Source: Deltaproteobacteria bacterium
GTDB taxonomy: Bacteria; Desulfobacterota; Binatia; Binatales; Binataceae
NCBI GenBank assembly: GCA_021817345.1
Contig: JAKAVC010000138.1
Coordinates: 1 to 64,000, forward strand
Reading direction: 5' to 3'
Length of the DNA: 64,000 nucleotides
A model generated the notes under the pieces. It saw nothing but the letters and a program-made list of their open reading frames with translations. It ran no database searches and had not been told where the DNA came from. Both the position numbers and the translations under genes were made by a program. Below, in pieces: positions 2,095 through 27,459 of this stretch (its first letter is position 1; each line of letters opens with the position of its first letter).

Positions 2095-2285
2095 TCACGG
2101 AGAGTAGCGCCAGGACTCGCTCACGCGAGTTGACGAGGTGGAAGCTTATCGAACAATTCGGCGGATGGCTTCCCGGTGCCACGATCGTCAGAGACGGACA
2201 AACCGAGCGGGCGACCGCGCGACAATAACCGTCTCAAGTGGTGGAGCGTAATGCTCCAGAGTGACCTTCCTAAACTCTCCCGAAA
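2095..2285 (+). ncRNA. glmS ribozyme (glucosamine-6-phosphate-activated self-cleaving ribozyme) in glmS 5' leader
   Basis: Blocks AGCGCCAG / (ACTCGC..GCGAGT hairpin) / TTGACGAGG / AAGCTTATCGAA / ATTCGGCGGATGGCTTCCCGG match the remembered glmS ribozyme core order and spacing, followed by AGACGG..CCGTCT and TGGAGC..GCTCCA helices, immediately upstream of glmS. Predicted cleavage between A2106 and G2107. Confidence 0.9.
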
Positions 2286-2378: not shown

Positions 2379-4211
2379 ATGTGTGGAATCGTCGGATACG
2401 TGGGAGCGCAGGAAGCATATCCAATCCTGGTGGGCGGACTTAAACGCCTGGAATACCGCGGCTACGACTCGGCCGGAATCGCAACTCTTGACGCCGGCAA
2501 CAGGCTTGAAGTTCGCCGCGCGGTGGGAAAACTCGAAAACCTGCGCAAGCTCGTCGAACATTCTCCGCTCACCGGGCATATCGGAATCGGGCACACGCGA
2601 TGGGCCACGCACGGACGGCCCTCCGAGCAGAACGCCCATCCGCATCAGGCTGGCCCCGTCGCGGTAATCCATAACGGAATCGTCGAGAATTTTATCGAGC
2701 TTCGCGCCGAGCTCGTCCGCCGCGGGCACAAGCTCAAGTCCGAAACCGACAGTGAGCTTATCTCGCACCTGGTCGAGGAAAACGTCAAAAGCGGACTTGC
2801 GCTGACCGACGCGGTGCGCCGCGCGGTGCGCGAATTGCGCGGCTCGTTTTCGATCGTCGTGCTCTCGGAGACCGAGCCGGCCAAGCTGGTCGCGGCCAAA
2901 ACCGCAACCCCGCTCGTCGTCGGCCTTGGCGAGGGCGAGAACTTCGTCGCCTCCGACATCCCGGCGCTGCTCGAACATACTCGGCGCACAATCGTGCTCG
3001 AGGACGGCGAAATCGCCGAACTCGGCCGCGACGGCGTCCGCCTGATGAAGTTCGACGGCACCCCCGTCCATCGCGAACCCCGCATCATCCAATGGGACGC
3101 GGCACGCGCCAGCAAGGGCGGCTACCGGCATTTCCTGCGCAAGGAGATCGACGAACAGCCGCAGGCGTGGATCGACACGATGGCGGGGCGGGCGACGCCG
3201 GCGTCGTCGCGGGTCGCGTTCGAGACCGAGCTTCTGCCGCCGGGCGGCGCTGAGAGCGTGAAGCGAATCGTGATGGTGGCGGCGGGAGCGTCGTGGATCA
3301 CGTCGCTAATCGGCAAATTCATAATCGAGCAGGTCTGCGCAATCCCGGTCGAGGTCGATTACTCCGGCGAGTTCCGCTATCGGCGTCCGCCGCTCGGACC
3401 GGGCACCGTGGTGTTCGCGGTTTCGCAGTCGGGTGAAACGGCGGATACGCTGGCCGCGACCGAAGAGGTCGTGGCGCGAGGCGCGCACGCGATCGCGCTC
3501 ACCAACACGCTGGATTCCTCGATCGCGCGCCGGGCGCATGCGCAGCTCTATACGCGATGCAGTCCCGAAATAAGCGTCACGACGACCAAGTGCTTTACCA
3601 CCCAGATCGAATCGTATTTCCTGTTCGCGATTCACCTGGCGATGAGGCTCGGGCGGCTCTCGGAGCAGGAAGCCGGCGCGCTTTTGAAGCCGGCGTTTTT
3701 GATCCCCAGCCAGATCGAGAGCGTGATCGCGCTCGAACCCGCGATCCGCGCGATCGCGCGCAAGTACGCGCTGGCGAGCGACTTTCTCTATATCGCAAGA
3801 GGCATCAATTACCCGGTCGCGCTCGAAGGAGCACTCAAGCTCAAGGAGATTTCCTATATCCACGCCGAAGGTTATTCGGCCAGCGAGATGAAGCACGGGC
3901 CGATCGCGCTGATCGACGAGCGGATGCCGGTCGTGGTGATAATTCCGAACGACGAGCTGTTCGAGAAGACGCTCTCGAACATGAAAGAGGTCGAGACGCG
4001 CAACGGGCGGATAATCGCGCTGACCAACCGCCGAACGCCCGAACTCGAAGCGATCGCGTCCGACATAATCGAAGTGCCGGAGACAAGCCCCCTGCTGACA
4101 CCGGTGCTGATGACGGTTCCGCTCCAGTTGCTCGCGTACCATATCGCGGTTGAGCGCGGGACCGACGTCGATCAGCCGCGAAACCTCGCCAAGTCGGTCA
4201 CGGTGGAGTGA
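2379..4211 (+). CDS. glmS: Glutamine--fructose-6-phosphate aminotransferase (isomerizing)
   Basis: MCGIVGYVGAQEAYPILVGGLKRLEYRGYDSAG N-terminal Ntn amidotransferase, SIS domains, C-terminal NLAKSVTVE. ATG at 2379 gives the mature Cys2 start. Confidence 0.98.
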   Translation: MCGIVGYVGAQEAYPILVGGLKRLEYRGYDSAGIATLDAGNRLEVRRAVGKLENLRKLVEHSPLTGHIGIGHTRWATHGRPSEQNAHPHQAGPVAVIHNGIVENFIELRAELVRRGHKLKSETDSELISHLVEENVKSGLALTDAVRRAVRELRGSFSIVVLSETEPAKLVAAKTATPLVVGLGEGENFVASDIPALLEHTRRTIVLEDGEIAELGRDGVRLMKFDGTPVHREPRIIQWDAARASKGGYRHFLRKEIDEQPQAWIDTMAGRATPASSRVAFETELLPPGGAESVKRIVMVAAGASWITSLIGKFIIEQVCAIPVEVDYSGEFRYRRPPLGPGTVVFAVSQSGETADTLAATEEVVARGAHAIALTNTLDSSIARRAHAQLYTRCSPEISVTTTKCFTTQIESYFLFAIHLAMRLGRLSEQEAGALLKPAFLIPSQIESVIALEPAIRAIARKYALASDFLYIARGINYPVALEGALKLKEISYIHAEGYSASEMKHGPIALIDERMPVVVIIPNDELFEKTLSNMKEVETRNGRIIALTNRRTPELEAIASDIIEVPETSPLLTPVLMTVPLQLLAYHIAVERGTDVDQPRNLAKSVTVE

Positions 4212-4328: not shown

Positions 4329-5651
4329 TCAAGGAGCCGCCGCCACCATCGCACGCACCGTGCAGAAGTCCTTGTCCACCGCGCCCATGTTGATGTACCA
4401 GCATTCGCGCTCGGGCGTATGCTGCCCCGGCAGGTAGCACATCGTGGAGATTCCGCTCTGGACGTCCACGCGGTCGGAGCCGACCACGAATTCGCGCTTG
4501 AACGGGTAGATCGCGACGCGCGCGTCAGGAACCGGGCGGTCACGATAGGTCAGCCAGAATATGTTTGAACGCCAGAGCTGGCCGTTGCGATCGTAGCCAT
4601 CCACGGCCGGCGGGAACCAGCATTCGCTGTCGATATAGAGCACGCTCTTGCTGTCGAGCGCGTCACCGGCCTTTCCAAGACTGCGTCGCGGCGTCGCTTC
4701 CACGATATATGCGTCGCGAGTCTCCCAGTTGTCCGGGCATGCGCTCGCGCCGCCGTCGTGTGGGCAAGTCGCCTCGGGCGAATATTTGGCGTGCACGCAG
4801 AACAGCATGTTCTTCTCGCCCAGAAATCGATAGTTGTAAAACTCGACCTTGGGATTGAAGCCCGAGTAATGGTCGGGATCGAACGACTGCGTTCCGGTTG
4901 CGGAACTCAGGATGGACTCGTTGAGCCGGCGCACCCGCCGCACGCCCGGATTCCACGTCCACGCGTCATCGCCACGCTTGGGGTCGCCGTAGCGGAAGCG
5001 GATGAGGCCCTCGCCGCGCGAATCCTCCGGCGCGAGAATCGGGTAAAGCGCGAACAGCCATACGCGATTGGTCTTCTTGTAATCGGGATCGATCGGAACA
5101 GGCTCGACCTCGGTGCGTCCGACCAGGTTGTAACCAGCGTAATGCCCGACCCAGATCTCGTTGATGATGCGCTGGGAGCCGCCGGGATTGACGCGCTGAT
5201 ACTGGCAGTCAAAGAAGCGCAGATCGTAATCGTCGGTCGAGATCGGCCGGAACACGTTGTTCCAGATGATCTTGGTCGCAATATATGGATCGTTGGTGTC
5301 AAGCAGCGGGAACGGCTGACCCGCAACGTAACCAATCAGACTCCTATGGTCGGCGCTGAGACGCACCTGCGAGGAGTACTTCTCGGTCGCATCTTTATAC
5401 GGCGGCGGCCAGTCGATTTCCTGGTGCGGCACGATGTCCATCCACATGCCATGCTGCACCATGTAATACACGCCGGGCGATACCAGGCCCTTAACCTTGG
5501 ACGCATTCTTCGGCGTGATAACGTCCCCGGGCTTGACCTGCGCCCGGGCGACGAGCGCGCCGACGAAAACCACGAGGCAAAAGGCGAAAGCGCCCACGAA
5601 GGCCTTCCGAACCCGTTCCAACATCGCGATGAACCCCCTCCCCGGAACCAA
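4329..5651 (-). CDS. DUF1329 family exported protein (copy 1)
   Basis: Signal peptide (AFCLVVFVGALVARAQ) then KPGDVITPKNASKVKGLVSPGVYYMVQHGM, resembling the DUF1329 family; internal ATG at 5624 is a plausible start. About 80-90% similar by eye to the ORF at 5832-7130. Confidence 0.75.
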   Translation of the reverse strand: MVPGRGFIAMLERVRKAFVGAFAFCLVVFVGALVARAQVKPGDVITPKNASKVKGLVSPGVYYMVQHGMWMDIVPHQEIDWPPPYKDATEKYSSQVRLSADHRSLIGYVAGQPFPLLDTNDPYIATKIIWNNVFRPISTDDYDLRFFDCQYQRVNPGGSQRIINEIWVGHYAGYNLVGRTEVEPVPIDPDYKKTNRVWLFALYPILAPEDSRGEGLIRFRYGDPKRGDDAWTWNPGVRRVRRLNESILSSATGTQSFDPDHYSGFNPKVEFYNYRFLGEKNMLFCVHAKYSPEATCPHDGGASACPDNWETRDAYIVEATPRRSLGKAGDALDSKSVLYIDSECWFPPAVDGYDRNGQLWRSNIFWLTYRDRPVPDARVAIYPFKREFVVGSDRVDVQSGISTMCYLPGQHTPERECWYINMGAVDKDFCTVRAMVAAAP

Positions 5652-5831: not shown

Positions 5832-7130
5832 TTATGGAGCCGCCGCCACCATCGCGCGCACCGTGCAGAAGTCCTTGTCGACCGCGCCCATGTTGATGTA
5901 CCAGCACTCGCGCTCGGGAGTGTGCTGTCCCGGCAGGTAGCACATGGTGGAATCCCCGGCCTGCTCGTCCACTCGCGCCGCTCCCACCACGAATTCGCGC
6001 TTGAACGGATAGATCGCCACGCGCGCGTCAGGCACCGGGCGGTCGCGATAGGTCAGGAAGTAGATATTCGCGCGCCACAGCTTCCCGCTTCGATCGTAGC
6101 CGTCCACGCACGGCGGGAACCACACTTCCGAGTCGATGTAAACGACGCTCTTGCTGTCGAGCGCGCCGCCCGCCTTTCCAAGCTTGCGTCGCGGCGTCGC
6201 CTCCACGATATAGACGTGGCGCATCTCCCAGTCCTCGGGGCACACGGTTGCGCCGCCGTCGTGCGCACAGGTCAGTTCGGGCGAGTATCTCGCGTGCACG
6301 CATAGCAGCATGTCCTTCTCGCCAAGGTAGCGGTAGTTGTAAAACTCGACCTTGGGGTTGAAGCCAGAGTAATGATCCGGATCGAAAGTCTGGGTCCCCG
6401 TGGCTGAACTCAGGATCGCCTCGTTGAGCCGCCGCACCCGCCGGACACCCGGATTCCACGTCCACGCGTCATCGCCGCGCTTGGGGTCGCCGTAGCGAAA
6501 ACGGATCAGGCCGACGCCCCGCGAATCCTCGGGCGCAAGCACCGGATACAGTGCGAAAAGCCATACGCGGTTGGTTACCTTGTAGTCGGGGTCGATCGGA
6601 AGCGGTTCGACCTCCGTTCGCCCGACTTCGTCGTAGCCTGCGTAATGCCCGACCCAGATGTCGTTGATCACGCGATGCGAGCCGCCCGGATTCACGTACT
6701 GGTACTCGCAGTCGTAGAAACGCAGGTCGTAGTCATCGGTCGAGATCGGCCGGAACACATTGTTCCAGATGACCTTGGTCGCGATATTCGGATCGTTCTG
6801 GTCGAGCAGCGGAAACGGCTGACCGGCCACATAGCCGACCAGGCTCCGATGGTCGGCGCTCAGGCGCACCTGCGAGGAGTACTTCTCGGTCGCGTCCTTG
6901 AACGGAGGCGGCCAGTCGATCACCCTGTGCGGCACGACGTTTATCCACATGCCGCGCTGGACCATGTAATAAACGCCTGGCGACACCAGGTTTTTCACTT
7001 TCGCCGCGTTCTTTGGAGTGATTAAGTCACCGGGCTTGACCTGGGCTCTTGCGGCAATTGCGAAAACGAATAGAACCGAGCAGGCGACGACGCCCGCCAT
7101 CAGCTTTCGGGCCCCTTGCGGCATTGGCAT
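5832..7130 (-). CDS. DUF1329 family exported protein (copy 2)
   Basis: MPMPQGARKLMAGVVACSVLFVFAIAARAQVKPGDLITPKNAAKVKNLVSPGVYYMVQRGMW; close paralogue of adjacent ORF. Confidence 0.75.
   Translation of the reverse strand: MPMPQGARKLMAGVVACSVLFVFAIAARAQVKPGDLITPKNAAKVKNLVSPGVYYMVQRGMWINVVPHRVIDWPPPFKDATEKYSSQVRLSADHRSLVGYVAGQPFPLLDQNDPNIATKVIWNNVFRPISTDDYDLRFYDCEYQYVNPGGSHRVINDIWVGHYAGYDEVGRTEVEPLPIDPDYKVTNRVWLFALYPVLAPEDSRGVGLIRFRYGDPKRGDDAWTWNPGVRRVRRLNEAILSSATGTQTFDPDHYSGFNPKVEFYNYRYLGEKDMLLCVHARYSPELTCAHDGGATVCPEDWEMRHVYIVEATPRRKLGKAGGALDSKSVVYIDSEVWFPPCVDGYDRSGKLWRANIYFLTYRDRPVPDARVAIYPFKREFVVGAARVDEQAGDSTMCYLPGQHTPERECWYINMGAVDKDFCTVRAMVAAAP

Positions 7131-12191: not shown

Positions 12192-13958
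<1,767 letters not shown>

Positions 13959-25248: not shown

Positions 25249-27459
<2,211 letters not shown>

Follow-up and report, generated by a model that had tools for sequence, protein, structure and literature searches.

Expression of glmS in a diderm bacterium is almost certainly governed by a cis-acting glmS ribozyme, a riboswitch that sits in front of a native gene, was apparently gained once, and is accompanied in the carrier clade by a putative extra helix, P0. glmS ribozymes are self-cutting RNAs that shut off amino-sugar synthesis, and are best known from Bacillus-type bacteria (Firmicutes). The locus lies in a 64,000-nt stretch of DNA (the window; features are on its forward strand unless marked otherwise). 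There, glmU (579-2009; TIGR01173, 513 bits against a cut-off of 367, start codon picked from the open reading frame) is followed by glmS (2379-4211, 610 aa; TIGR01135, 763 bits, cut-off 418), the downstream gene named by the initial annotation. The gap between them, given there as 370 nt, measures 369 nt (2010-2378), and does hold the ribozyme: in the covariance-model check which that annotation had proposed, RF00234 matches 2095-2245 over its full length (model positions 1-167 of 167; E 5e-17), scoring 81 bits where the gathering score is 37. This is the sole Rfam match above gathering score in the window, and RF00234 matches nowhere else in the 3.54-Mb genome. The order is glmU-ribozyme-glmS, with the ribozyme directly upstream of glmS. 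On the evidence of its sequence, we conclude that the 2095-2245 element is an authentic member of the known glmS ribozyme family in front of glmS.

The predicted cleavage site, between A(-1) and G(1), falls at 2106-2107, as placed by aligning the conserved AGCGCC to RF00234 and, in part, by general knowledge of the family, on which we take A2106/G2107 to be the site. AGCGCC and the core strings GACGAGG, AUCGA and UCGGCGG are present in the window and unchanged in all 14 family loci. The motifs listed in the initial annotation were all found where it had placed them; this analysis adds two pairings missing from that list, the P3.1 pseudoknot and P0. Its span of 2095-2285 rightly contains the ribozyme, but the Rfam match stops at 2245.

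We aligned the 14 ribozymes found in the window's family, which span five genera, from 14 nt before G1 to just beyond the conserved AAACUCUC, and counted pairs on a structure written from the family architecture, leaving P2.1 out of the count. Across the 14 loci 96.6% of cells pair, a measure that benefits from the structure having been drawn on the window sequence itself and guided by the family model; sliding the partner strands as a control lowers pairing to 33-40%. Double changes occur at 16 of the 51 pairs, against a shuffled mean of 7.1, and none of 500 shuffles reached as many. Covariation is seen in P1, P3, the P3.1 pseudoknot, P4 and P4.1, as well as in a further hairpin at 2242-2258. 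In P2, P2.2 and P0 neither strand changes anywhere in this set, so these helices gain no support from covariation.

P1 (2114-2131; 2114-2120 with 2125-2131) is paired in 93% of cells, with double changes at two pairs. P2 (2140-2173; 2140-2144 with 2169-2173) encloses the P2.1 and P2.2 core strands and is 100% paired, as is P2.2, whose 5' strand CGCC (2108-2111) pairs with GGCG (2160-2163). P3 (2174-2187; 2174-2178 with 2183-2187) is 98.6% paired, with seven double changes at one pair, and its loop CCAC (2179-2182) pairs with GUGG (2238-2241), the 3' strand of the P3.1 pseudoknot; P3.1 is 100% paired, with compensatory change to GCAC/GUGC in one locus (L162), and the other carrier family (f92) has GUCAC/GUGAC. 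Within 2191-2235, P4 (2191-2197 with 2229-2235) is 90.6% paired with double changes at five pairs, and P4.1 (2204-2210 with 2215-2221) 96.9% paired with double changes at three; this domain has a GCGA tetraloop of GNRA type, an internal loop, conserved AAAC and GACAA flanks, and covarying stems. The hairpin at 2242-2258 ("P5", UGGAGC-GUAAU-GCUCCA) is 95% paired, with double changes at four of six pairs. The initial annotation had counted this helix (TGGAGC/GCTCCA) among those of the ribozyme: the helix is present, but lies outside the Rfam model as a lineage-specific addition, and as a covarying hairpin it is a detail new in this analysis.

The element shares with RF00234 ribozymes of the Bacillus subtilis and Thermoanaerobacter tengcongensis type (architecture from PMC11602151; PMC2258182) the core strings, P1, P2/P2.2, the P3/P3.1 pseudoknot, P4 with its internal loop and GNRA-type tetraloop, the glmS target, and the leader position. 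It differs in its diderm host, its location between glmU and glmS, one nucleotide more than the model has after UCGA, P1 and P3 helices that are short, and the additional hairpin and P0 complement downstream. The innermost pair of P3 in the window is G.G and P4.1 has one A.G mismatch, as might be expected of a decayed, inactive relic that only resembles a glmS ribozyme, an assignment itself made from sequence; we consider this very improbable, given that the catalytic core strings do not differ among the 14 loci, which span five genera, whereas the stems around them change by compensation.

P0 would join the leader just before the cleavage site to the conserved downstream AAACUCUC. Its 5' strand, GAGAGU (2100-2105; -7 to -2 relative to the cleavage site), and its 3' strand, ACUCUC (2274-2279; +168 to +173), are each identical in all 14 family loci, though their flanks vary; the first base of ACUCUC lies 163-182 nt after G1. 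P0 appears in the minimum-energy fold of 13 of the 14 segments. Helices beside the cleavage site in 115 loci outside the window's family are, as a set, no better than chance, with a flat p distribution that rules out P0 as a general feature of glmS ribozymes. One of the 115, from a MAG labelled "Proteobacteria bacterium" (L064), has a perfect 10-bp helix, TTGAGTTTAT/ATAAACTCAA, which stops at -2 and whose partner strand is about as far away as in P0; none of the exchanged downstream regions scored as high. At positions -3 to -6 both strands depart from those of the window's family without loss of pairing. Like the diderm host of the window, the host of this locus is probably diderm (its BamA-like match, 219 bits, is below cut-off), but its GlmS match has only 34% identity, over the C-terminal half, and its ribozyme core is only distantly similar. 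As one locus picked from 115, it is only suggestive of an independent P0-type counterpart in an unrelated Gram-negative locus. Two of 58 genomes in its class carry the ribozyme; a BamA-bearing genome of the same class (G500) has a diverged glmS ribozyme on the minus strand (L180; 50 bits), with a longer GACGAGG-AUCGA stretch and possibly an additional core stem. It is quite possible, if somewhat short of probable, that P0 is an extra closing helix in the carrier clade, and independently in L064, serving as a clamp that would retain the 5' product or set the cleavage rate.

The downstream P0 region also bears on translation. CUCUCCC (2275-2281) is complementary to the likely Shine-Dalgarno sequence GGGAGAG (2365-2371), a complementarity not kept in every relative, and it might, after cleavage and loss of the leader strand, shift from P0 to the Shine-Dalgarno, blocking glmS translation instead of or alongside decay by RNase J. 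The complement is a perfect 7 bp in the window, L165 and L156, 8 bp in L158 and 6 bp in L163, and its pairing is predicted at 0.61 in the cleaved window RNA. However, only 3-4 bp are present in L157, L159, L160 and L161, and permuted loci are equally complementary (observed 74, mean 71.4, 72 of 500 as high), by which we rejected Shine-Dalgarno sequestration as a general platform. Pairing is predicted to be even stronger in the uncleaved RNA, which would not make a switch: when the whole leader of the window is folded without pseudoknots, CUCUCCC prefers the Shine-Dalgarno over P0 (0.95 versus 0.03). With an RNase J gene in the host also counting against it, translational control of this kind is unlikely.

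Transcripts could reach the ribozyme from either of two starts. A candidate sigma-70 promoter, TTGATA-N17-CAGAAT (2006-2034), is predicted overlapping the glmU stop, with its -10 box ending 72 nt before G1; 9 of 12 consensus positions match (mononucleotide-shuffle p ~0.03 for the window). In 12 of the 14 loci the two boxes of the best site are 17 nt apart. In other carriers this site is mostly a TTGAAC-like box, 17 nt and an nATAAT-like box located 50-83 nt upstream of G1, a single one lying further off. Because of these similar predicted sites in other carriers, glmS probably has its own promoter in addition to any read-through from glmU. A sigma-70 factor is encoded in the window (12192-13958, minus strand). 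Five loci (L002, L003, L005, L156, L157) have a GAGGTGAYGGTCGA-like conserved stretch ~40 nt before the cleavage site.

The host is diderm, judging from BamA in its genome (581 bits, cut-off 297) and from the MacB, HlyD-type adaptor, LolA-like/DUF1329 proteins and O-antigen ligase domain encoded in the window, in line with the Gram-negative host proposed initially. Two neighbouring DUF1329/LolA-like proteins (4329-5651 and 5832-7130, both minus strand) are likely envelope lipoprotein-related; elsewhere in the window a peroxidase-family protein (25264-27459; PF00141, two matched stretches) is likely a catalase-peroxidase. The genome also encodes RNase J (TIGR00649, 450 bits, cut-off 400). Messages cleaved by the glmS riboswitch decay via RNase J (PMC7125110), and this route is thus available to the host.

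With BamA and RNase J both in the host, the standard mechanism fits. From the computed sequence, structure, context, phylogenetic pattern and RNase J and BamA genes, we infer the following course of cleavage, ligand dependence and decay. A transcript beginning in the glmU-glmS gap, or reading through from glmU, would bear the ribozyme. At high concentrations glucosamine-6-phosphate would bind the preformed double-pseudoknot pocket and serve as cofactor as the RNA is cut between A2106 and G2107. The 3' fragment, carrying glmS behind a 5'-OH end, would then be degraded, most likely by the host RNase J, and decay of the glmS message would close the feedback loop, which might be linked, as the initial annotation proposed, to cell-wall/EPS demands elsewhere in the window. 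In the carrier clade, P0 would probably steady the cleavage-site strand or tether the 5' product.

The ribozyme is rare in the host's phylum, occurring in 6 of 395 sampled genomes, four from the window's family and two from one genus of another family; the initial description of the host as an atypical carrier thus holds for this sample. The RF00234 cut-off is exceeded by 14 of the 41 genomes of the window's family and by 2 of 56 in the class of the second carrier genus, where another genome (G530) has a weak match below gathering score (L181; 26 bits). A 26-bit match in a genome of the window's own genus (G415) was rejected as GC-rich and chance-like, with part of the model missing; read by eye, its sequence resembles a coding region of the opposite strand, and that assembly yielded no full glmS. 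Further afield, a pattern scan of named genomes gave, among the matches listed, mostly Bacillota, but also Chloroflexota, Actinomycetota, Caldisericota and a few MAGs; its pattern derives from the core of the window's family, and its counts are no census. The ribozyme is therefore best known from Firmicutes, as first stated, but is carried by these other groups too. RF00234 also matches the control genome of Deinobacterium chartae. Two pattern matches on virus contigs (L124, L125) were discarded, as neither record has an RF00234 match.

A GlmS tree unites the family carriers in a single clade (SH-aLRT 98). The window branches off deepest within it, and the clade as a whole is nested among relatives of the family and class that lack the ribozyme. 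Ribozyme-less relatives retain glmU-glmS with gaps of 1-185 nt; in the window the gap is 369 nt, and the blast-based gaps of other carriers are likewise wider. GlmS of family carriers and non-carriers alike is ~70-76% identical to that of the window, and GlmS of named loci from elsewhere, among the matches listed, at most 58%. Taken together, the single carrier clade among non-carriers, the short gaps and the similar GlmS identities are most simply explained by a native glmS and one gain of the RNA in the ancestor of one clade of the host's family. Patchy presence would also result if the ancestor of the whole family or class had carried the ribozyme and many losses had followed. We find this improbable: the carriers form one clade, for which a single change suffices, the sister groups and sampled class are negative, and only 6 of 395 genomes in the phylum sample are carriers. 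The nearest ribozyme cores among the matches listed come from Chloroflexota and Actinomycetota MAGs (L116, L066, L007, L065), at 0.60-0.66 identity too distant to name a donor; unlike the window, these have P0 complements not above chance, and their GlmS proteins are distant.

We suggest that this locus offers a natural case in which a regulatory RNA was acquired in front of a gene already resident, comparable with sister genera that lack the ribozyme, and that it would document the use of a metabolite-dependent ribozyme for regulation in a diderm lineage. P0 may be a small extra helix, possibly new: we found no description of such a layer for the glmS ribozyme family in the literature consulted, a weak statement given incomplete coverage. 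If real, P0 would couple cleavage by the ribozyme to what becomes of the leader fragment.
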